A program made the position numbers and the translations under genes. Shown piece by piece: positions 16,998-29,653 of a stretch of DNA of 43,464 nt. The notes under the pieces were generated by a model. The model saw nothing but the letters and a program-made list of their open reading frames with translations. It was not told the DNA's origin and ran no database searches. The DNA lies in the NCBI GenBank assembly GCA_021324255.1, contig JAJPJL010000122.1, positions 1 through 43,464 on the forward strand, read 5' to 3'. Every line of letters begins with the position of its first letter. The first letter of the stretch is position 1. Origin of the DNA: Bacillota bacterium. GTDB taxonomy: Bacteria; Sysuimicrobiota; Sysuimicrobiia; Sysuimicrobiales; Segetimicrobiaceae.

Positions 16998-17171
16998 GGC
17001 GCCGGTCCGGTTCCCGCCGCGGGCGGGCGCGAACAGCGCGGGCATGGACGTTCGGGCCGCCGCCATGTTACCATTTAGTATCGTGAGTTCCGGGGCAAAA
17101 GCTCGAGCCGCGACGCTCGGGTCGACCCGCTATCGCACGTGCTCCGCGGCTCCCAGGAGGCCACGCAAGGA

Positions 17172-19046
17172 ATGACAGTTAACCAAATGAAGCTGCTGAT
17201 CGGCGGCGTGCAGCTTCGTGACGGTGTCTCCACGGTCGCCGACCTCGTCGGCCGAATTCTCACCCGCGCAGGACTGCACGTGCTCGGCGTCGAGCGGAAC
17301 TTCGCATCGACGATCTACGGCGCCCACCAGTACGACCCGCTCGTCGTCTCCGCGAGGCCGCTGGTGTCGTGGGGCGACCGCGCCATCGATGTGCTCGCCG
17401 GGCTCGAGTACGACAGCAACCCCGACGCGCCGCAGCAACCCAACCGCGACACGATCCGGCAGCACGCCGGCGATCTCGTCGACGGCGGCGTGCTCCTCTA
17501 CGACAGCTCCGGCGGCCCGGTGGAGACCGGGGCGCTCCAGGCGCGCGGCGTGCAGGTCTTTGCGATTCCCGCCCGCGATATCGCGCTCCGGGAGCTCAAG
17601 AAGGAAGTGGTCAAGAACCTGATCATGACGGGCGCGCTGTTCCGCCTGCTCGAGTTCGATCAGGACGAGCGCTGGCTCCGCCGGTTCTTGGAGGAACGCT
17701 TCGGGCGCAAGGGTGCGGCCGTCGTGGATCTCAACCTCGAGGCGGCGCGCCGCGGGCGCGCGCTCGTCGAGCGGATTCTCGAGGACCGGCGCCAGTCCTC
17801 GGTCGGCTACCGGATCGAAGCGGTCCGCGATGCGGCGCCCGCCGTGTACGTCAGCGGCAACGAGGCGTTGTCGATCGGCGCGATCGAGGCGGGGGTCCGG
17901 TTCTACGCGGGCTACCCGATCACGCCCGCGTCCGGCATCCTCGAGTACATGGAGACGTACCTGCCCGGGTACGGCGGGCGGGTGCTGCAGGGCGCGAACG
18001 AGCGCGAGTCGATCCGCGCGGCGCTCGGCGCGAGCGTCGCCGGCGTGCTGAGCATGGTGGGGACGAGCGGGCCGGGACTGTCGCTCAAGGTGGAGGAGAT
18101 CGGCGTCTCCGGGACCACCGAGACGCCGCTCGTGATCGTCGACGCGATGCGCGCGGGGCCGTCGACGGGCATGCCGACCAAGGCCGAGCAGGGCGACCTC
18201 ACGCTCGTCACGGGCGGCGGGCACGGGGAGATCCCGCGTATCGTGCTGGCGCCGTCGACGATCGACGAGTGCTACACGCTGATGCGGGACGCGGTGCGGC
18301 TGTCGGATCGGTACCAGTGCCCGGTCTTCTTTCTGACCGACCTCAACCTGAGCGAGGGGCGCATGACGGTGCCGGAGTCGGTCTTCCGGCCCGGCCGCGC
18401 CTCGATCGCGCGCCACGTCGCCGCCGAACACGACGTGCGCGGGGAGCGGTACCTGCGCTACCGTCTGACGGACAGCGGGATCTCGCCGCGCCTGATCCCC
18501 GGGCAGCGGGGCGGCATCTCCAAGATCAGCAGCACCGAGCACGACGAGTTCGGGTTCGTGACGACGGACCCCGCGATGCGGGTCGCCCAGATGGACAAGC
18601 GGATGCGCAAGCTCCACACGTACCTGCGGGAGGACGCCAAGGCGCCCCAGGTGTACGGTGAGGTGGGGCGCGGCCTCACGTTAGTCGGGTGGGGCGGGAC
18701 CAAACTCGCCCTGCTGGACGCGCGCGAGCGGCTGCGCCGCGATGGGATCGAGGCCGCCGTCGTCCATTTCACGCACCTCTGGCCGTTTCCGACGCACCTG
18801 GCAAAGCCGCTCCTGGACACCGGCGGGCCGGTCGTCGTGTGCGAGCACAACTACTTTGGACAGTTCGCGGATCTCATCCAGGCGCACTGCCTGGTGCCGA
18901 CGCGGCGCGTGCTCAAATACAACGGCCGGACGTTGTATCCGTCCGAGGTCGTGCGCGCGGTCCGGGAGGTCACCCACAACGGGGCGGTGGCCGTCCGACT
19001 CGGCGGCAAGGATCCGGTGATGGTCGAGGTGAGCATCGATGCCTGA
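17172..19046 (+). CDS. korA: 2-oxoacid:ferredoxin oxidoreductase, fused gamma-alpha subunit
   Basis: Catalytic partner of KorB: oxidative decarboxylation of 2-oxoglutarate (or another 2-oxoacid) to acyl-CoA with ferredoxin reduction. The 624-residue protein has the gamma domain at the N-terminus (about 5-190, GGVQLRDGVSTVADLVGRIL) fused to the alpha pyrimidine-binding domain from about 220. That domain contains GNEALSIGAIEAGVRFYAGYPITPAS in pieces, ANERESIRAALGAS and the MVGTSGPGLSLKVEE loop. Fusion of gamma and alpha is the usual form in bacterial KorA/OforA. AGGAGG lies 12 bases before the ATG and AAGGA directly before it. It overlaps korB by 8 bases. There is no built-in ferredoxin domain, so an external ferredoxin is required. 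Confidence 0.93.
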   Translation: MTVNQMKLLIGGVQLRDGVSTVADLVGRILTRAGLHVLGVERNFASTIYGAHQYDPLVVSARPLVSWGDRAIDVLAGLEYDSNPDAPQQPNRDTIRQHAGDLVDGGVLLYDSSGGPVETGALQARGVQVFAIPARDIALRELKKEVVKNLIMTGALFRLLEFDQDERWLRRFLEERFGRKGAAVVDLNLEAARRGRALVERILEDRRQSSVGYRIEAVRDAAPAVYVSGNEALSIGAIEAGVRFYAGYPITPASGILEYMETYLPGYGGRVLQGANERESIRAALGASVAGVLSMVGTSGPGLSLKVEEIGVSGTTETPLVIVDAMRAGPSTGMPTKAEQGDLTLVTGGGHGEIPRIVLAPSTIDECYTLMRDAVRLSDRYQCPVFFLTDLNLSEGRMTVPESVFRPGRASIARHVAAEHDVRGERYLRYRLTDSGISPRLIPGQRGGISKISSTEHDEFGFVTTDPAMRVAQMDKRMRKLHTYLREDAKAPQVYGEVGRGLTLVGWGGTKLALLDARERLRRDGIEAAVVHFTHLWPFPTHLAKPLLDTGGPVVVCEHNYFGQFADLIQAHCLVPTRRVLKYNGRTLYPSEVVRAVREVTHNGAVAVRLGGKDPVMVEVSIDA

Positions 19047-19911
19047 GGCGGTCCAGGCGACCAAGGCGATCTGGGACCAAAATGCCGCGCCGCGGCACCG
19101 CATCCAATGGTGCCCGGGCTGCGGCGATTACGCCGTGCTGAACGCGGTCAAAGCGGCGGTGACGTCGCTCGAGCTCACGCCGGCGGAGCTGCTGCTGGTG
19201 GCCGGGATCGGGTGCTCGGGGCAGATCCGCAACTACCTGAACGGCAACGCGTTCTACGGCACCCACGGCGGCGCGCTCGCCTACGCGCTCGGCGCGAAGA
19301 TGGCCAACCCGGAGTTGACCGTGCTGGTCATGGCGGGGGACGGCGACACGCTCGCGATCGGGATCGAAAACTTCGTGCACGCCTGTCGCCGCGATCCCGA
19401 CATCACGCTGGTGCTGATGAACAACGGCGTGTACGGGCTCACCAAGGGGCAGGACTCGCCGTCCGCGGGGCTCGGCCAGCCGGATTGGAAACCGTCCGAG
19501 GAGCACCCGCCGTTCATCGATCCGGTGGAGGTGGCGCTGACGTGCGGCGCGACGTTTATCGCGCAGGGATTTTCGGGCGATCCCAAGCACGCCGCGCAGC
19601 TGATCGTGGAGGGCGTGCGCCACCGCGGATTCGCCGTCATCAACGATTTTTCGCCGTGCGTGACCTACAACAAGGTGAACACCTACGACTGGTTCCGCGC
19701 GCACGTGGAAACGGTGCCCGCCAGCCATGATCCGTCGAGCAAGGCCGCGGCGTGGGACCTGGTGCGCGACTTCCAGCGCCGGGGCAAGCTGCCCACGGGC
19801 ATCGTGTACCGCGCCGCGCGGGCGAAGGGGGACGGGGCGAAGCGCCTCCCCACCTGGCCCGACGAACTGGCGCGAGCCGATGTCGAACCGTTGGTCAAGC
19901 GGCTGCGCTGA
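19039..19911 (+). CDS. korB: 2-oxoacid:ferredoxin oxidoreductase, beta subunit
   Basis: The thiamine-diphosphate and [4Fe-4S]-binding subunit (290 aa). Cluster ligands are the two Cys of WCPGCGDYAVL (about 24-34), the Cys of GIGCSGQI (about 57-64) and that of FSPCVTYN (about 211-218). The TPP motif GDGDTLAIG (about 100-108) is followed by LMNNGVYGLTKGQ. This is a complete, standard-length beta subunit. Its start codon lies within the end of korA (ATG overlapping by 8 bases). A seven-iron ferredoxin encoded at 32.1-32.4 kb is a candidate electron acceptor. Confidence 0.95.
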   Translation: MPEAVQATKAIWDQNAAPRHRIQWCPGCGDYAVLNAVKAAVTSLELTPAELLLVAGIGCSGQIRNYLNGNAFYGTHGGALAYALGAKMANPELTVLVMAGDGDTLAIGIENFVHACRRDPDITLVLMNNGVYGLTKGQDSPSAGLGQPDWKPSEEHPPFIDPVEVALTCGATFIAQGFSGDPKHAAQLIVEGVRHRGFAVINDFSPCVTYNKVNTYDWFRAHVETVPASHDPSSKAAAWDLVRDFQRRGKLPTGIVYRAARAKGDGAKRLPTWPDELARADVEPLVKRLR

Positions 19912-19942: not shown

Positions 19943-19970
19943 CCGATGACCGCCGCGAGGCGGTCATCGG
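19943..19970. terminator. Bidirectional terminator between korB and the leftward HD-GYP-MFS gene
   Basis: A perfect 12-bp stem (arms CCGATGACCGCC at 19943-19954 and GGCGGTCATCGG at 19959-19970) with GCGA loop is followed on the + strand by ACGTTT. It overlaps the last codons and stop of the leftward gene, so it can serve both directions. Confidence 0.75.
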
Positions 19971-22576
19971 ACGTTTCCCGCCGGCCGCGCGGCGCGGGGA
20001 TCGGGAGGGCGCCCCGCCGCGCCGCTCCGCGGCTCGTCCGCGGGCGTCGGCGCCGTCGCGGCGCGAGCCGCCGCGCGCCGCGGGACCGGGAGGTTCCGCC
20101 CCGCGGCGACCCACACGATGGCGACGCCCGCAATGGACACCATCCCGAGCAGCACCAGCGCGGCCTGGGGGCCGGCCACGTCCGCGAGCCGGCCGAACAC
20201 CAGCATGCCGAGCAGGGTCGTGCCGGCGATGAACACCTGCCGGCTCGCCATGAGCCGGCCGACGATCCATGAAGGGGCGTTGGCCAGGGAGATCGAGGCG
20301 TTGGCGATGTTGGTGGCGATGTTGCCGGCGCCGAAGAGGAACGCCCCCGCGATGAGCACCGGGTACGACGTCGTCAGGCCGAACAGGCCGACGCCCACGC
20401 CGGTCAAGAGAAACGTCATGATCACAAACGGTACGCTCACCCACCGCCGTCCGGTCGCGGCTAGCGCGACCGCGGAGGCGAGCTTGCCGACGCCGATGAC
20501 GCTGTTGATCACGCCGTACGCGACCACCGGCAGGCCGGCGGCGCGAATGATCATGGGCGCGCGGAGCGCCGGAAACGCCAGCGTGAGGTACCCGGGGACG
20601 ATGAGCAGCGCCAGCACCAGATGGAGGGGCGTGCGGCCAATGTAGGTGAGGCCTTCGCTGATCTCCGTCACCAAATGCTTCGGGGCCGCGCCGCCCAGGC
20701 CGGCCCGCCACGCGAGCGGCATGAGCCCGACGCAGACCGCGCTCACCACAAAGCTCAGCGCGTCGAGATAAAACACCATGTGGTAGCCGAGCGTGAGCAC
20801 GATCGCCCCGCCGAGGACCCCGCCGACGATCTCCGCGATCCGCTCGGTCGTCTGCAGCATCGCCGTGCCCGTCGGCAAGATCTCGTCGGGGACGACCGCC
20901 GGGATGAGACCGTACACCGCCGACCGGAAAAACACCGTGCCGACGTTCAGGACGACGAGCACCAGGAGCCCCGCCGGCAGCGATCGCAGGAGCACAAAGG
21001 GCAGCGCCGCGACCAGCGCGGCCCGCCCCAGGTCGGCCGCGATCATGACCCCGCGGCGGTCGATACGGTCCGCCAGGGCGCCGGCGAGGAGGCCCAGGAG
21101 GCCCTGGCCGACGGTGGCGGTAATGAGCGCGACGGCGAGCACCGTGGCGGACTTGGTGAGCTGATACACCCACAGCGTCAGCGCGATGAAAAAGATCTCG
21201 TCGCCGAGAAAGCTGACCAGCTGGCCGCCCCACAGCAGGGCGAAGGAGGGTTGCCGGAAGAGCAGCGCCCACGCGGGGAGCGGGCCCCGGCCGGCGTCCG
21301 GCGCCCGGCGTTGCTCGGCCGCGCCGGCGTGCAGGCGCATGACCCCCGCGCGGGCGAGCACCGTTTGCAGCGCCGCGATCACCCGTGGATCGAACTGGGT
21401 TCCGGCGTTGCGGGCGAGCTCCTCGAGCGCTTCCCGCGGTGATCGCGCGGCCCGGTACGGACGGTCCGTGGTCATGGCATTGTAGGCATCCACCACGAGG
21501 TTGATGCGCGAGCTGAGCGGGATCTGCTCTCCGGCTAGCTTGGACGGATAACCGGTGCCGTTCAGATTCTCGTGGCTTGCGCCCACGAGCGGCGCAATCT
21601 CGGCCAGCCCGCTGATGGACTCCACGATGCGCACGCCGGCCTCGACGTGCGATTGCATGATGCGCCACTCTTCGCTCGTCAGCTTGCCCGGCTTCAGCAG
21701 GATCTCGGAGGGAATCACGGTCTTGCCGACGTCGTGCAGCAGCCCCGTGAGGTAGACGCGATGCACTTCGGGCTCGTCGAGGCCCAAGACCCGCGCGATC
21801 CGTCTGGAGAGCTCGGCGACGGCGGCGGAGTGGTCGGCCGTGTAGGGGTCCCGCGCGTCCACGGCCGCGGCCAGGACCGACACCGCGGCCAGCGCCCGGC
21901 GCTGTTCCCGGCCGCGCAGGATCCGCGGTAGATAGAGTTGCAGCGTGAGCGCCGCGGCGAGCGGGGGGACGAGTAGCCGCGCCGTCAACGACGGATTGTT
22001 GCTGGCGGCCCACACCGCGACAAACGCGGCCCCGGTAAAGGCCGCCATGTGAAACGTCGTCGAGGTCACCTGGAAGCGGACCGCCTGCGGCCAGGTGAGC
22101 CCTTCCTCCAAGTGCAGGTGCGCCGAGGCCAAGATCCAGCGAATGACGGTGTAGACGAGGCCGGCGACGATCACATCGCCGGCGCTGCCCCACTCCGGCA
22201 TGGCGTACACGACCAGGGCCGCGGCGCTGATCGACAACAGCTGATCGCCCGAGTCCATCAGTACGTCTTGCCACGGCCGCCGGAGCAGGCCGAACGTCAT
22301 GCCGGCAGCGGCCCCGAGCAGGGTGGGAGTCCAGCCGAACAACACGAGCGCCGCTACCGTGATGACGGGGCTCAGCGGCAACTCGCCGGAGGGGTCGAGG
22401 TAGATCGGATATTGGTCAAGCAGCGCCGTGGTCAAGGCGATCACGAGCACCGCGGGGATGTCGGCGGTGGTGATCCCCCGCGCCCCGCTGGCCAGTAGCA
22501 CCGCGCTACAGGCGGCGATGCCCCAGGTCAGCGTCGTCAGCGGAACGTTCCGTCGCGCCGCAGTCATCTCGACCAT
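19964..22576 (-). CDS. Membrane sensor + HD-GYP phosphodiesterase + MFS transporter fusion
   Basis: A single continuous frame of about 870 residues joins three parts. Residues about 12-220 form an N-terminal membrane region of roughly seven segments (MASE-like sensor). Residues about 235-410 are an HD-GYP domain with ADHSAAVAEL, metal-binding LLHDVGKTVIP, SHENLNGTGYP and DAYNAMTTDRPYR. HD-GYP domains break down cyclic-di-GMP. From about 436 an entire MFS permease follows, starting FRQPSFALLWGGQLVSFLGD, with motif A-like GALADRIDRRGVMIAAD and about 10-12 membrane segments, similar to EntS-type exporters. A polar tail closes the protein. No stop or frameshift lies at the junctions. ATG 22576 follows the upstream gene's stop by 2 bases; TTG 22582 is possible. 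It is co-transcribed with the HD-GYP gene before it. Confidence 0.88.
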   Translation of the reverse strand: MVEMTAARRNVPLTTLTWGIAACSAVLLASGARGITTADIPAVLVIALTTALLDQYPIYLDPSGELPLSPVITVAALVLFGWTPTLLGAAAGMTFGLLRRPWQDVLMDSGDQLLSISAAALVVYAMPEWGSAGDVIVAGLVYTVIRWILASAHLHLEEGLTWPQAVRFQVTSTTFHMAAFTGAAFVAVWAASNNPSLTARLLVPPLAAALTLQLYLPRILRGREQRRALAAVSVLAAAVDARDPYTADHSAAVAELSRRIARVLGLDEPEVHRVYLTGLLHDVGKTVIPSEILLKPGKLTSEEWRIMQSHVEAGVRIVESISGLAEIAPLVGASHENLNGTGYPSKLAGEQIPLSSRINLVVDAYNAMTTDRPYRAARSPREALEELARNAGTQFDPRVIAALQTVLARAGVMRLHAGAAEQRRAPDAGRGPLPAWALLFRQPSFALLWGGQLVSFLGDEIFFIALTLWVYQLTKSATVLAVALITATVGQGLLGLLAGALADRIDRRGVMIAADLGRAALVAALPFVLLRSLPAGLLVLVVLNVGTVFFRSAVYGLIPAVVPDEILPTGTAMLQTTERIAEIVGGVLGGAIVLTLGYHMVFYLDALSFVVSAVCVGLMPLAWRAGLGGAAPKHLVTEISEGLTYIGRTPLHLVLALLIVPGYLTLAFPALRAPMIIRAAGLPVVAYGVINSVIGVGKLASAVALAATGRRWVSVPFVIMTFLLTGVGVGLFGLTTSYPVLIAGAFLFGAGNIATNIANASISLANAPSWIVGRLMASRQVFIAGTTLLGMLVFGRLADVAGPQAALVLLGMVSIAGVAIVWVAAGRNLPVPRRAAARAATAPTPADEPRSGAAGRPPDPRAARPAGNVR

Positions 22577-22578
22577 GT

Positions 22579-23850
22579 TCAACGGGTCGCCACCGCGTTC
22601 TTCCGGTGCTCCGCAAGCGCGGCGACCAGCGCGTCAACGACCTGCGGGTCGAGATCACGGCCTCGCATTGCGCGCAAACGCTTCAACGCATGACGCGGAG
22701 CGCCGGCACCGGCCTGGTGCTGCGCATCTTCATACGCTTCGGCGGCCGCGAGGATCCGAGCCGCGAGGGGAATGCGCCGGCCCCGTTTCCCGTCCGGCAC
22801 CCCTCGGCCATCCCAGCGCTCGTGGTGCGCCCTGACGATCCGCGCCACGAGCGGGTCCGGAAATCTCGCGAGAATGGCGCTCCCCGCGCTCGCGTGATGG
22901 GCCGGGGTTTCGGAGCCCGTGGAGGGGCCGGCCAGCATCCCAACGTCATGGAGGCGTGCGGCGAGGCGCATACTGCGAATCGTCGCCTCCGACATGCGAA
23001 GGCGCCGTCCCACCTCGGTTGCGAGACTGCCCACGCGCTCTCCGTGTTCCCGCGCGCGGGGATCCACGCCTTCCAGCACCCGCACGACGGCCTCCACGAT
23101 CTCGCCGACCGCCTGTTGCGACCGATGATACGAGGCAAGCTCCTGCCGCGGGATCGGCAGGGCGATCGCCGAGACGGCCGTGAGACCCAGGGCGGCCCAC
23201 GCGTTGCCGAGGCGCGCGGCGATGCTCGCGAGCAAGATCGCCATCGGTGCCGCGAGCAACTGGATGTCCCATTGATCGATGACGTTCTGGCGCCACGTGG
23301 CGGACAAGGGGTGGCCGAAGCGCAGGTGCTTGTACACCGCGAAGATCCCTTCGTTCACGATGCGATTGACGGAGACGATGACGACGGCCGCAACGAAGAA
23401 CTGCAGGAGCCCGGGCTCGATCCTCGCCGCCGCCGCGTGCCCCGCGAACGCGGCCGCGGCCGTGGCAAGGCCCCAGCCGGCGCCATTGTTGCCGGCACGC
23501 CAGAGTTCGCTCCTGGAAAAGAGCAAGAGTCCCACACACGACCCGATCCCGACGCCCAACAACACGTCCTGGGGCAGCCAGATCAAGGCCGCCACGATCT
23601 TGACGTTGTTGACGGGGAATGTGCTGCCGCCGGAGGGGTTGGGGATCGGCGGGACAAGACCGGCGGCCATGAACACCAGCGCGAGCCCCGCGACGATCGC
23701 CGCGTGGCTGTGCGGCACCGCCACGAGTGCCGCCGTTACGTATAGACCCGCGAGCGCGAGGCTGAATCCCTGAATCGGACGCGAAAGCCCGCGGAACGAT
23801 TCCCCCATTGGCGAGCGAGATCGAGGTAGGCGATCCGGGCGGCGCGTCAT
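22579..23850 (-). CDS. Membrane HD-GYP-type protein with degenerate GYP motif
   Basis: A 423-residue protein: about six membrane segments (residues 28-235, including VTAALVAVPHSHAAIVAGLALV in parts) followed by a cytoplasmic HD-GYP domain. EHGERVGSLATEVGRRL (268-284) and RLHDVGML (299-306) carry the metal-binding His-Asp, and AHHERWDGRGVP (341-352) is the GYP block with Tyr replaced by Val. The Lys normally after HDxG is Met. The His/Asp metal ligands remain, so activity on c-di-GMP or another cyclic dinucleotide is possible but uncertain. It ends 2 bases before the ATG of the HD-GYP-MFS fusion. The start is uncertain (23850 or ATG 23808), as neither has a good ribosome binding site. Confidence 0.85.
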   Translation of the reverse strand: MTRRPDRLPRSRSPMGESFRGLSRPIQGFSLALAGLYVTAALVAVPHSHAAIVAGLALVFMAAGLVPPIPNPSGGSTFPVNNVKIVAALIWLPQDVLLGVGIGSCVGLLLFSRSELWRAGNNGAGWGLATAAAAFAGHAAAARIEPGLLQFFVAAVVIVSVNRIVNEGIFAVYKHLRFGHPLSATWRQNVIDQWDIQLLAAPMAILLASIAARLGNAWAALGLTAVSAIALPIPRQELASYHRSQQAVGEIVEAVVRVLEGVDPRAREHGERVGSLATEVGRRLRMSEATIRSMRLAARLHDVGMLAGPSTGSETPAHHASAGSAILARFPDPLVARIVRAHHERWDGRGVPDGKRGRRIPLAARILAAAEAYEDAQHQAGAGAPRHALKRLRAMRGRDLDPQVVDALVAALAEHRKNAVATR

Positions 23851-24548: not shown

Positions 24549-25121
24549 CTATGCTGGGGCGCGACGATACCGGGCCCGGCCCTCCTCATATACGTCACCG
24601 CCGTGGACGTCGTTGACCACCACGACGGGAAATCGTTCCACCACGAGCCGGTGGATCGCCTCGGGCCCAAGGTCGGGAAAGGCGACCACGGCGGCGTCGC
24701 GGACGCACGCGCCGAGCAGCGCGGCGGTGCCCTCAACGGCGCCAAAGTAGACGGCGCGCTGCCTCATCATCGCGGCGCGGACCTCGGCGGAACGCTTGCC
24801 TTTGCCGATCATGGCTCGCAGGCCGGTCGCGTCCAGGATCAGCGGGGTGTAGGCATCCATTCTGGACGCCGTGGTCGGGCCGGCAGAGCCGATCGGCCGG
24901 CCCGGCCTGGGCGGGGTCGGACCGCAATAGTACACGACCTGATCGCGGAGATCCACCGGCAGCGGGAGGCGACGGGTAATGAGGCCGGCGAGGCGCTCGT
25001 GCGCCGCATCGCGCGCGGTGTAGATCGTGCCGCTCAGGAGCACGGCGTCGCCCGCGCGCAGGCTCTCGGCCCGTCTCGTGTCGAACGGGACCGTGACCTG
25101 GAGGGCCGGGCGGGAGGTCAT
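24549..25121 (-). CDS. Class I fumarase-type hydro-lyase, beta subunit
   Basis: The C-terminal (beta) subunit of two-subunit iron-sulfur hydro-lyases (fumarase, L-tartrate dehydratase, mesaconase). The 190-residue product shows AGDAVLLSGTIYTARDAAHERL (about 23-44), the conserved VYYCGPTPP and GPTTASRMDAYTP (about 81-93), the IGKGKRS loop and FPVVVVNDVHGGDVY at the end. It overlaps the alpha gene by 4 bases (ATGA), implying fixed stoichiometry. The beta subunit contributes substrate-binding residues. Which of fumarate, mesaconate or tartrate is used cannot be read from this. Confidence 0.9.
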   Translation of the reverse strand: MTSRPALQVTVPFDTRRAESLRAGDAVLLSGTIYTARDAAHERLAGLITRRLPLPVDLRDQVVYYCGPTPPRPGRPIGSAGPTTASRMDAYTPLILDATGLRAMIGKGKRSAEVRAAMMRQRAVYFGAVEGTAALLGACVRDAAVVAFPDLGPEAIHRLVVERFPVVVVNDVHGGDVYEEGRARYRRAPA

Positions 25122-25966
25122 AGGACCACGCTGCCCGCCCGGTGGGAATGGCAGTCCAGATTGACCGCGACCGGCAGGCTCGCGATGTGGGTCGCACGGC
25201 TCTCCACGTGCACGGCGAGCGCCGTGACCCGGCCGCCGAACCCTGCCGGGCCGATCCCGAGCGCGTTAATTTTGTCGAGCAATTCGCGCTCGAGCGCGGC
25301 CAGCTCCGGATCGGCGCTGGGCGTCCCCACGGCCCGCAGGAGCGCGCGTTTGCTCAACAGCGCCGCCTGTTCGAACGTCCCGCCCATGCCCACGCCGACG
25401 ATGAGCGGCGGGCTGGGGTTGGGCCCCGCGTCGGACACCGCCTGGACGACGAACCTCACGGCGCCTTCCCGGCCGTCCGACGGCGTGAGCATCGCGAGGC
25501 GGCTCATATTGTCGCAACCGGCGCCCTTGGCGAGGAAGCCGAGCGCCACCCGATCCCCCGGCACGACGCGCGTGTAGACGATCGCGGGCGTGTTGTCGCC
25601 GGTGTTGATCCGGCGTAACGGCTGCTCGACCACGGACGGTCGCAGGTAGCCCTCGCGGTACCCCTGCCGGACGCCTTCCTGGATCGCCGCTTCCAGGTCG
25701 CCGCCCGCGACGTGGAGGTCCTGGCCCAGGTCGAGAAAGACCACTGCCTGGCCGGTATCCTGGCAGATTGGGTACCATTGCGAGCGCGCGACCTCGGCAT
25801 TTTCCAGCAGGCGTTCGAGCACGTGGCGGCCGGTCTCGCTCTCTTCCGTCGCCCGCGCCCGCCGGAGGGCAGCGAGCATGTCGTCGCCCATACGGTGGTT
25901 GACGGTGATGCACAGATCGCGCACCGCGGCGGTGATGTCGCCGGCGGCGATGGTCCGGATCGTCAA
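25118..25966 (-). CDS. Class I fumarase-type hydro-lyase, alpha subunit, with one cluster Cys replaced by Ser
   Basis: The N-terminal (alpha), [4Fe-4S]-carrying subunit (282 aa). Two usual cluster ligands are present: PICQDTGQAVVF (about 84-95) and NLDCHSHRAG near the C-terminus. At the place where the family normally reads CPP before VGVG, this protein has NPSPPLIVGVGMGGT, codon AGC, so Ser replaces Cys. A further Cys sits in GAGCDNMSRLAMLTP. The TTG start at 25966 has GGAGGG 6 bases upstream and overlaps the stop of the CoA-transferase gene (TTGA), so the operon is translationally coupled. Fumarase is the default name; mesaconase is plausible given the CoA-transferase neighbour. Confidence 0.87.
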   Translation of the reverse strand: MTIRTIAAGDITAAVRDLCITVNHRMGDDMLAALRRARATEESETGRHVLERLLENAEVARSQWYPICQDTGQAVVFLDLGQDLHVAGGDLEAAIQEGVRQGYREGYLRPSVVEQPLRRINTGDNTPAIVYTRVVPGDRVALGFLAKGAGCDNMSRLAMLTPSDGREGAVRFVVQAVSDAGPNPSPPLIVGVGMGGTFEQAALLSKRALLRAVGTPSADPELAALERELLDKINALGIGPAGFGGRVTALAVHVESRATHIASLPVAVNLDCHSHRAGSVVL

Positions 25967-27162
25967 ACGACGCCCTCCGCCGCAAGCCGCGCAAGGTCGT
26001 CCTTTGTGAGGCCGAGCCACTCCCCGTAGACCTCGCTGTTGTGCGCTCCGAGCGGAGGCCCGGCCGTTCGGACGGCGCCGGGTGTCTCGGAGAACTTCGG
26101 CACGACGCCCACCATGGCCAGGTCGCCCGCATCCCCGTCCGGCACCGAGATCACGTTGTCGCGCGCCGCAACGTGGGGGTCCGCGACGATGCGCGAAACG
26201 TCGTAGACAGGTCCCGCCACGGCGCCGCTCGCTTCGAGGCGGGCGAGGACTTCGCTCTCCGTGCGGCCGCCGATCCAGCCGGCGATGATGGCGTCGAGCT
26301 CGGCGCGGTGTGCCACGCGGGCCGCGTTGTCACAGAACCGCGGGTCCTCGATCAACTGGGGCTGGCCGATGGCTGCCGCCAAGCGTTCGAACACGCGCTG
26401 GCTCGTCGCCGACAGCGCGATCCACGTGCCGTCGTTGGCGGCGTACAAGTTTCTCGGGGCGGCGTCCGGGAACGTGCTGCCGGTCCGCCGGGCCTCGATG
26501 GCGAGCGCCCGGTACTGCGTCACATGGGGGATGAGCATCCGCAGGAGCGGCTCGTACAGGCTCACGTCGACGACCTGGCCCCGGCCGGTGGCGTGGCGGT
26601 GATGGAGCGCCATGAGCACCGCCATCGCCCCCATGACGCCGGCCACCTCGTCCGCGAGCGGGATCGGCGGGACGAGCGGCGGCGAATCGGGGAACCCGGT
26701 GATGGCGACGAGCCCGCTCATCGCCTCCGCGATCGTGCCGAAGCCCGGCCGGTGGCGGTAGGGACCGGTTTGACCGAACCCCGAGATGCGCAGCACGATG
26801 AGCCCCGGGGCACCCTGGAGCAGGCGGTCCGGGGCCAGCCCCCATCGTTCCAGCGTGCCGGGCCGGAAGTTTTCCACCACGACGTCGGCGCGCTGCGCGA
26901 GACGGACCAGCAGCTCCTGGCCCCGCGGGCGGCTGAGATCCAGCGTGATGGATTGCTTGTTCCTCGACATGACCTTCCACCACACCGAGGCCCCGTCGAC
27001 AAATGGTCCCCAGGAACGCAGCGGGTCGCCGCGCTTCGGGTGCTCGACCTTGACGACGCGGGCGCCAAAGTCGGCGAACATGGATGTCGCGGTGCCCCCC
27101 GACACAATCGTCGAGAGGTCCAAGATGGTGAGATCGCTGAGCGGGCCGCTCCTGTGCATCAT
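25963..27162 (-). CDS. Family III CoA-transferase (CaiB/BaiF type)
   Basis: A 399-residue family III acyl-CoA transferase that moves CoA between a dicarboxylic or other organic acid and a CoA donor through an aspartyl-CoA intermediate. Evidence includes LTILDLSTIVSGGTATSMFADFGARVVKVEHP in parts (10-42), the ADVVVENFRPGTLERWG block (about 92-108), SGFGQTGPYRHRPGF, and the catalytic Asp in PLADEVAGVMGAM (about 169). The length is standard. It is the first gene of a three-gene leftward operon with the two hydratase subunits. The pairing suggests a pathway on a C4-C5 dicarboxylate such as mesaconate, citramalate or itaconate, but the acid is not determinable. Confidence 0.9.
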   Translation of the reverse strand: MMHRSGPLSDLTILDLSTIVSGGTATSMFADFGARVVKVEHPKRGDPLRSWGPFVDGASVWWKVMSRNKQSITLDLSRPRGQELLVRLAQRADVVVENFRPGTLERWGLAPDRLLQGAPGLIVLRISGFGQTGPYRHRPGFGTIAEAMSGLVAITGFPDSPPLVPPIPLADEVAGVMGAMAVLMALHHRHATGRGQVVDVSLYEPLLRMLIPHVTQYRALAIEARRTGSTFPDAAPRNLYAANDGTWIALSATSQRVFERLAAAIGQPQLIEDPRFCDNAARVAHRAELDAIIAGWIGGRTESEVLARLEASGAVAGPVYDVSRIVADPHVAARDNVISVPDGDAGDLAMVGVVPKFSETPGAVRTAGPPLGAHNSEVYGEWLGLTKDDLARLAAEGVV

Positions 27163-27277
27163 CGCGGGCTATACGAGCGTTCGCCTCCGGGCACAGATTC
27201 CGCCCGGACATCGGCGTCCCTGCCCGCGGAGCTCTCCGGGCCGCAGCCGCGCCCGCGGCGCGCTACGGCGGAGGGGG

Positions 27278-29572
27278 TCACAGGACCGGCGGTCGCAGGA
27301 GCGAGGCGCGGGCGTCGCGAGCCGGCGCCGATAGGGGGTGTCCGGGGAGATCTTCGAGCTGGGCAAGGATCTCCGCGGCCTGCCAGGCGAGACGCTGCAG
27401 GTCGCCATCGGGGATGTGGTGACGCGTCGTCACGCTCCCCCAGGCCCGGCCGGCCGCCCACGTCATGATCGCCGAGGCGCGCCACGCCGCCTGGGCCGGT
27501 TGACTGCCGGCCCCCGCAAGCTCGTCCTCGAGCGGGTCCGGCGGGAGTCGCTTCTCGCGCAGCGCGGCGTTCAGCCGCACGACGACGCGCCGCAGCGCGA
27601 GGAGCGCCCGGCGCACCTCTTCCCCGACGGGCCCGTGCTCCCACCCCGCCAGGCGCGCCGTGGCCTCGGATTCACGGTGACCCGGGCGGGCGAGCGCCCG
27701 TACCCGCGGCACGACAAGCCGTTCGGTCCCGAGCGCCCCGGCCACACCCGCGAGCGCCAGGGGCTTCGCGGGCAGAATCCGGGCTCGGATCGCCTCGGCG
27801 AGCAACAGCATTCTCGGATGGCGCATGCGCGCGGCCGTACGGCCGGCATCCGTGGGGCGTCCGGCGGCGTCGAGGTATCCGAGATCGCGGAGGATCGCCC
27901 GGCGCGCGCGGAACTCATGCACCTCGCGATTCTCGAGAGCGTCGAGCGTACGCGCCGCCTCCCGGCGTTCGCGCTCTAGGGCCGCAAGGTCGGGCAGGCT
28001 TGCGAGGCAGCGGTCGACGGCGGGGCACCCGGTGCAGGGGACCCGCACGATCTGCTGCCCGAGCTGTGCGACCGCCTCCGCCCCGCCGGGCCGGCGCCGT
28101 GCGCGCCGCAGGCGGTCGAGCAGCCCCTCAAACTTGGCCCGTGTCGCCAGGCGGTCGCCGCAGGGCCGGTCCACGAGGGGATCCTGCGGGAGCGCGGCGA
28201 GCCGTTCGCGCGCCGCGGCGATCTCCGGTTGCCGCAGAAAGCCCGCGAATGACCGGCGCATCATCTCCTCCGCGTCCGCCGACGGTCCGCGGACGAGCAG
28301 GTTGAGCACCTGCGCGTCGCTCGGCGTGAACCTCGAGACGACCGGGTCGGGCGCGGCCGCGGCCAGGGCCAGCCCCGCCTCCGCATCGTCCGTGCGTTCC
28401 GCCGCGACGACCACGATCCCGAGGGTGTCCCGGCCCCGGCGTCCTGCCCGGCCGCTCATCTGATGGAATTCCGTCGGCGTGAGCGGCTCCACGCCCTCGG
28501 GGCCGTGCCGGTAGAGTGTCGAGAGCACGACGGTGCGCGCCGGAACGTCCAGCCCGGCCGCCAGCGTGGTCGTCGCGCAGACGAAGCGCACCAACCCTGC
28601 CTCGAGCAACTCTTCCACGCACAGGCGCCACGCGGTGAGGTGCCCCGCGTGGTGGGACGCCACGCCCGCGCGGCGGAGCCCTGTGAGCAGGGGGTGCGCT
28701 GAAAGCTGGGGAGTCGCGGCGAGCCATCGCTGGATCCGCGCCGCGCGCTCGGCGTCCCCGGGCGCGGGGCGGGCGCCGAGCGCGCGCGCCGCGTCGTCGC
28801 ACTCGCGGCGGCTCGGAAAGAACAGAATCGCGGGCGTGAGACGATGCCGGTCGAGTCCCTCCGCGACGGCCGCGAGCCAGCGCGGCTGTTTCGAGCGCGC
28901 TCGAATCCCGGGCGCGGCGTCCGGAGGAAGGAGTTGCCCGCTCGCGTCCGCCAGGAGAAACGCGAGCGGCACCGGGCGCGTATCCAGCGTGATCACCGCG
29001 GGCGCGCGCCCGCGGAGCGTGCCGATCCACGCTGCCAGCGCGCCGGCGTTTGGGATCGTCGCGGAGAGCAGGAGCAGCCGGCTCTCTCGCGGCGCCAGCA
29101 ACAGCACTTCTTCCCACGCCGTGCCGCGTTCAGGGTCGGCCAGATAGTGGGCCTCGTCGAGCACGATCACGCCCGCCGGCGCCTCCCGGCCTGCCGGGTC
29201 GTACAGGGTATTGCGCAGGATCTCGGTCGTCGCCACGATTACCGGGGCGCGCGTATTCACGCGCCGCTCGCCGGTGAGGAGCCCCACGGCGGCGTCGCCG
29301 AACAGGGCCTGGAACCTCCGGAACTTCTGGTTCGAGAGCGCCTTGAGCGGGGTCGTGTACCACACTCTGGAGGGTGCGGCCCCGGCCGGGGTCTCGAGGG
29401 TGCCCGCGATGTGCTGCTCCGCGATCCAGGTCTTGCCGCTGCCCGTCGGCGCGGAGACCACGACGTCGCCGTGCTCCAGCGCGGCGAGCGCATCGCGTTG
29501 GAACTGCGCGGGCGCAAACGGGCTCCGCGGCGCCTCGCCGACGTCGCGGAGGATCGCCTGCAGCGTGGTCAC
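27278..29572 (-). CDS. Ski2-like superfamily 2 helicase
   Basis: A DExH-box helicase of the Ski2/Mtr4/Hel308 group (764 aa from GTG 29572; GTG 29626 would add 18). In order: Q-like FQRDALAAL, Walker A APTGSGKTWIAEQH (about 42-55), TTPLKALSNQKFRRF, DEAH box VIVLDEAHYL (about 116-125), LLLSATIPN, then the second RecA domain with FFPSRRECDDAA, HHAGHL, TTTLAAGLDVPAR and motif VI HQMSGRAGRRGRD (about 369-381). After it, a segment with Cys pairs (CTGCPAVDRC, about 511-520) and a helical C-terminus recall the DSHCT region of RNA helicases. Such bacterial proteins probably act on structured RNA. No ribosome binding site decides the start. Confidence 0.88.
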   Translation of the reverse strand: MTTLQAILRDVGEAPRSPFAPAQFQRDALAALEHGDVVVSAPTGSGKTWIAEQHIAGTLETPAGAAPSRVWYTTPLKALSNQKFRRFQALFGDAAVGLLTGERRVNTRAPVIVATTEILRNTLYDPAGREAPAGVIVLDEAHYLADPERGTAWEEVLLLAPRESRLLLLSATIPNAGALAAWIGTLRGRAPAVITLDTRPVPLAFLLADASGQLLPPDAAPGIRARSKQPRWLAAVAEGLDRHRLTPAILFFPSRRECDDAARALGARPAPGDAERAARIQRWLAATPQLSAHPLLTGLRRAGVASHHAGHLTAWRLCVEELLEAGLVRFVCATTTLAAGLDVPARTVVLSTLYRHGPEGVEPLTPTEFHQMSGRAGRRGRDTLGIVVVAAERTDDAEAGLALAAAAPDPVVSRFTPSDAQVLNLLVRGPSADAEEMMRRSFAGFLRQPEIAAARERLAALPQDPLVDRPCGDRLATRAKFEGLLDRLRRARRRPGGAEAVAQLGQQIVRVPCTGCPAVDRCLASLPDLAALERERREAARTLDALENREVHEFRARRAILRDLGYLDAAGRPTDAGRTAARMRHPRMLLLAEAIRARILPAKPLALAGVAGALGTERLVVPRVRALARPGHRESEATARLAGWEHGPVGEEVRRALLALRRVVVRLNAALREKRLPPDPLEDELAGAGSQPAQAAWRASAIMTWAAGRAWGSVTTRHHIPDGDLQRLAWQAAEILAQLEDLPGHPLSAPARDARASLLRPPVL

Positions 29573-29653
29573 GCGGGCGCGGCCCACAGGAGCCGCCCGG
29601 GGCCGCGTCGAATGCCGGGGGAGCACACGAGACCGTGGTGGTTCGAGGGACCT

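Follow-up and report, generated by a model that had tools for sequence, protein, structure and literature searches.

A candidate messenger-gated exporter formed by an HD-GYP domain joined to a complete MFS transporter in one bacterial family

Transcription, motility, polysaccharide synthesis and adhesin release are among the processes that c-di-GMP is known to control. Among the HD-GYP phosphodiesterases, alanine mutants of PmGH at D183, H189, H221, D222, K225, H250, H276, H277 and D308 are essentially inactive, and its R192 hydrogen-bonds with D308 (PMC4159591). DvhD, by comparison, is a non-hydrolysing HD-GYP protein that serves purely as a c-di-GMP receptor (PMC13090378). A different kind of union between transporter and signaling domain is already known from CbrA and other SLC5 kinases (PMC7096432). 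Here we describe a protein that joins a membrane-anchored HD-GYP domain to an exporter of the major facilitator superfamily (MFS), encoded within a 43,464-nucleotide stretch of bacterial DNA (the window). Our literature search, which covered few subscription journals, found no paper on an HD-GYP-MFS fusion. If our reading of it is correct, a messenger domain covalently attached to an MFS exporter would constitute a direct, post-translational link from messenger to transport.

A single-frame fusion conserved in one family

The minus strand of the window carries, from 22582 to 19964, a single open frame of 872 codons encoding one 872-amino acid protein, in which N-terminal membrane segments are followed by an HD-GYP domain and then by a complete MFS exporter domain. 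The N-terminal region (residues 1–225; 21908–22582) contains about six to seven hydrophobic segments and reaches the cut-off of no Pfam family. The HD-GYP domain, hereafter HD-GYP2 (residues 226–411; 21350–21907), carries LLHDVGK and GYP motifs and belongs to the HD-GYP family by its match to Pfam HD_5 at residues 236–401 (6.8e-40; 137 bits versus a cut-off of 27.2). A fast-evolving linker (residues 412–436; 21275–21349) leads into the DHA3-like MFS domain (residues 437–830; 20093–21274), which is matched by MFS_3 at residues 442–825 (1.3e-18) and, in two stretches beginning at residue 450, by MFS_1 (4e-18). These above-threshold matches over both halves, together with motif A, place it in the MFS superfamily. 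It also covers the NCBIfam model TIGR00900 over its full length (364/364), at a score of 168.7 bits that lies below the curated cut-off of 319.6 for this DHA3 H+ antiporter model; the named families nearest to it, Mef(A) and EntS among them, are exporters of the DHA3 type, every score being below cut-off. The C-terminal tail (residues 831–872; 19967–20092) lacks conservation. A structure model of the protein (mean pLDDT 59.9) is trustworthy in the HD-GYP part only, where pLDDT is mostly above 90. The MFS part is modeled poorly, so the absence of solved MFS structures from the listed fold matches is uninformative, and the linker, whose predicted structure had been proposed as a check, is of low confidence.

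The original prediction, made from the sequence of the window, thus described the uninterrupted frame, its three parts and both HD-GYP motifs correctly, and its statement that the transporter begins where free-standing MFS proteins do agrees with the starting point of free-standing orthologues. Its gene span had the right frame and probably the wrong start: in place of the ATG at 22576, the most likely start is the TTG at 22582, because a 4-bp NTGA overlap between the start of the fusion and the stop codon of the preceding gene is present in 8/8 genomes (in the window, TTGA at 22579–22582, minus strand, suggestive of translational coupling). That preceding gene (22579–23850, minus strand) encodes HD-GYP1, a 423-amino acid membrane HD-GYP paralogue bearing HDVGM and GVP in the motif positions. 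The prediction's finding omitted this overlapping paralogue, and the ancestral cluster described below is invisible from the window. Elsewhere in the window, a 2-oxoacid:ferredoxin oxidoreductase-like pair on the plus strand (17139–19911) converges on the fused gene, and upstream of it (24549–29626) are genes resembling those for fumarase, CoA-transferase and helicase, all named by eye; the neighboring genes are largely conserved in the fused family.

The fusion is real. The same domain order, sought in related genomes, was found intact and in a single frame in eight genomes representing four genera of one family of uncultured bacteria (f1), the relatives' proteins being 44–87% identical to that of the window, which argues against a sequencing error and rules out the indel near 21300 that had been raised as a possible artifact. 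Third-position G+C remains between 0.80 and 0.97 throughout the gene, junction included. Internal stops listed for three genomes (G005, G006 and G009) gave way, on direct reading, to single frames across both domains. The remaining four genomes of the family contain no fusion in their assemblies; two are only 64–68% complete, and in G008 the contig stops inside HD-GYP1, exactly where the fusion should come next. Both halves of the protein are under purifying selection: dN/dS measured against G001 is 0.048 for the HD-GYP domain and 0.096 for the MFS domain, with pairwise values of 0.05–0.13 and 0.10–0.13, respectively, compared with 0.22–0.39 for the membrane region and 0.39–0.82 for the linker, which is short and not conserved. 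A search of the linker for conserved internal starts bearing a Shine-Dalgarno-like site found none, and we therefore rejected the production of a free MFS protein from within the gene.

A split gene cluster and the origin of the fusion

Our sample of the phylum comprised 43 genomes from a single order. A phylum with just one class and one order would be compatible with Sysuimicrobiota/CSP1-3 (PMC11604079), to which these genomes may belong. In families other than the fused one, the parts are separate neighboring genes in the order MFS, HD-GYP1, HD-GYP2, an arrangement seen in f2, f5, f6 and f7 and varied in one genome (G026), where the MFS gene lies approximately 4 kb further on and on the opposite strand. 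The observation named in advance as damaging to the fusion, that relatives always encode its parts separately, therefore describes the other families and fails within the fused family, where eight genomes carry the single gene. In a tree that took other MFS proteins of the same genomes as its comparison set, the fused and split MFS proteins constitute one subfamily (support 100/99), with all others falling outside it, and resolve within it into a fused group (100/100) and a split group (98/96). This subfamily and HD-GYP1 co-occur in 20 genomes (Fisher p 5e-9, without correction for relatedness). The only exceptions, G035, G012 and G008, all lie at contig edges: a 3.5-kb contig ends after the MFS gene in the first, both genes are cut at contig ends in the second and HD-GYP1 is cut in the third.

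The most parsimonious account places the joining of the cluster's MFS gene, behind HD-GYP2, at the root of the fused family. Conservation of the cluster, followed by fusion, makes a functional link between HD-GYP signaling and the transporter likely, as judged from gene content and arrangement. The split cluster of the sister families also provides a natural before-and-after comparison, by which it is directly testable whether fusion accompanied the loss of catalysis and the gain of gating.

The split loci have further features of their own. A BTAD-AAA-TPR (SARP-like) regulator of approximately 1200 amino acids follows HD-GYP2 in most f2 and f6 genomes (L036:9157-12729, L043:10398-14213, L040:2447-6181 and L039:7848-11498); it occurs in 10 genomes, all of which have the cluster, adjoins HD-GYP2 in nine of these, and is found in no genome of the fused family. 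Split MFS proteins (L034–L043) possess about 100 extra C-terminal residues, with a recurring "EF...EQRWLN"-like motif and then hydrophobic stretches, an extension that the fused MFS domain lacks. Split clusters additionally fall 3–18 points below their flanks in G+C (L034, L036–L040, L042–L045), as at L042 (52.5% versus 70.9%), while the fused locus and its surroundings are alike (70.1% versus 69.7%); the split lineages may have received the cluster horizontally.

Among the genomes searched, the MFS subfamily is restricted to the phylum of the fusion. A profile of the fusion returned nothing at 1e-75 from 343 genomes of other families, all outside the order, and a profile of its MFS domain returned nothing at 1e-60 in the corresponding search; these large searches score few candidates per genome, and a convergent fusion involving a different MFS protein could escape them. 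The 47 genomes of one other phylum likewise yielded nothing at 1e-70, an empty result that, without a positive control, carries little weight. A related-locus search of genome contigs matched the G001 record alone, plasmids gave no match covering 80% of the query, and viral contigs contained HD-GYPs, but no relative of the fusion's MFS subfamily. Proteins resembling HD-GYP1 also occur in about 10 families outside the phylum; each is a single HD-GYP that keeps the HD.GK motif, with no MFS protein of the subfamily adjacent. At three loci outside the phylum (L210, L213 and L218), single sensors resembling HD-GYP1 or HD-GYP2 adjoin large proteins with weak matches to the BTAD regulator profile (33–94 bits).

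Departure from the catalytic HD-GYP and retention of transporter features

We mapped the residues of the HD-GYP domains onto PmGH positions (PMC4159591). The fused domain retains seven of the nine residues essential in PmGH: in 8/8 genomes H276 is replaced by Ser and D308 by Asn or His (in the window, Ser336, codon 21575–21577, and Asn368, codon 21479–21481, minus strand), and R192 is missing. Neither change appears among 80 HD-GYPs sampled from viral contigs, which were fetched with patterns sparing positions 276 and 308; His occupies position 276 in 79 of these and Asp or Glu position 308 in 79. Split HD-GYP2 appears catalytically complete in most genomes, with His276 in 11/13, Asp308 in 10/13 and both changes together in 0/13, although two of the 13 have Ser at 276 and otherwise look active. 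HD-GYP1 has lost the catalytic Lys (K225) in 20/20 genomes, along with D183 in split clusters and the GYP tyrosine in the fused family, at a dN/dS of 0.17–0.20. Both HD-GYPs of the fused family thus look to have departed from the known enzyme, yet to be under selection.

These losses favor messenger binding over breakdown. The original prediction had suggested that cyclic-dinucleotide breakdown is coupled directly to transport; the clustering and co-occurrence of the split parts speak for a functional link, and the replacement of H276 and D308 in every fused protein speaks against breakdown by the fused domain. Three other long HD-GYP proteins are encoded in the source genome (L001, L003 and L004), two of which (L003 and L004) also bear GGDEF motifs in the same chain, and a source of c-di-GMP is therefore likely.

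The MFS domain looks functional. It retains D505, R506, R509 and R510 of motif A, which is invariant in fused and split members, and R553, E584, N754, R781 and Q782 are invariant in 22/22 fused and split proteins while being rare in the other MFS proteins compared, features that suggest that the transporter works and has a substrate of its own.

A proposed mechanism, its alternatives and known systems

We propose that a two-gene operon gives rise to a pair of membrane HD-GYP proteins, of which the second carries a DHA3-like MFS exporter. The pair would act mainly as a cyclic-dinucleotide receptor, c-di-GMP being the most likely ligand, with hydrolysis reduced or absent; nucleotide binding or dimer rearrangement would open or close the attached exporter, and sensing by the membrane parts would tune that binding or rearrangement. 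The topology permits such an arrangement, since the HD-GYP domain and the MFS N-terminus are both expected in the cytoplasm, and the architecture suggests that the messenger may act directly on the transporter. Nucleotide binding, the pairing of HD-GYP1 with the fusion, transport gating and export as the direction of transport are steps that we infer. Retention of seven PmGH-essential residues means that some hydrolysis may occur, which counts against a receptor, and the short, unconserved linker offers no visible coupling element. We consider a receptor gating the exporter to have not quite an even chance of being correct. The fuller claim is more tentative: that fusion within an MFS - HD-GYP - HD-GYP cluster, present in several families of the phylum, gave rise to an MFS exporter with a built-in receptor, through which c-di-GMP or a related messenger gates the transporter of the same chain directly.

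It is doubtful, though conceivable, that the domain is instead an active phosphodiesterase whose messenger breakdown is coupled, in either direction, to transport in the same chain. Its HD, K225, H250, H277, D305, GYP and nucleotide-binding Arg residues are retained, its dN/dS (0.05–0.13) indicates strong purifying selection, and its split counterparts are mostly complete-looking; set against these are the two PmGH-essential positions replaced in all eight genomes and unaltered in this way in the 80 other HD-GYPs. Less probable is a transceptor working in the opposite direction, for which CbrA is a precedent (PMC7096432): the MFS domain would sense or transport a substrate and report through HD-GYP2 and HD-GYP1, with the BTAD regulator as output in split clusters. 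Although this regulator-like gene adjoins HD-GYP2 there, it is missing from the fused family, an output is hard to see in an HD-GYP with lost catalytic residues, and polar residues of the transport type are retained. Listeria Mdr-type MFS pumps secrete c-di-AMP, and the MFS domain could itself export a cyclic dinucleotide or product captured by HD-GYP2. The positive charges of invariant R553 and R781 in the membrane region, and of K700 in fused proteins, would be suited to an anion as substrate, but such charges have a role in the proton coupling of MFS exporters too, and we find export of this kind improbable. A chance, neutral joining of unrelated adjacent genes whose parts act independently would accord with the unconserved linker but is very improbable given the clustering and co-occurrence of the split orthologues across the phylum and the persistence of the fusion through divergence down to 44% identity.

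A receptor-gated exporter would have partial counterparts among known systems. With the HD-GYP phosphodiesterases PmGH (4mcw), V-cGAP3 (5z7c) and PA4781 (4r8z) the fusion shares HD_5, the GYP loop, most metal ligands and, in the predicted structure, the HD-GYP fold; it differs from them in the replacement of H276, a metal ligand, and D308, and in the complete transporter attached. DvhD of Desulfovibrio (9rbz, 9rc0; PMC13090378), a membrane protein with a departed HD-GYP as receptor, is among the best fold matches of the model (Z 25.3, rmsd 4.2, 198 aligned). In DvhD the HD motif is gone, as are both His, and there is no transporter, whereas the fusion has lost one His and D308; its residue losses point toward a DvhD-type receptor, capable of binding without hydrolysis, but are milder. 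The likeness to DHA3-type exporters (TIGR00900; Mef(A), EntS, Tap) extends over the whole of the TIGR00900 model, although the MFS domain scores below its cut-off and forms its own subfamily. Finally, the CbrA/CrbS SLC5-STAC sensor kinases (PMC7096432) likewise combine a transporter and a signaling domain in one chain, but there an SLC5 transporter is joined to a kinase, whereas the fusion differs in both transporter and signaling domain and carries its MFS transporter C-terminally.
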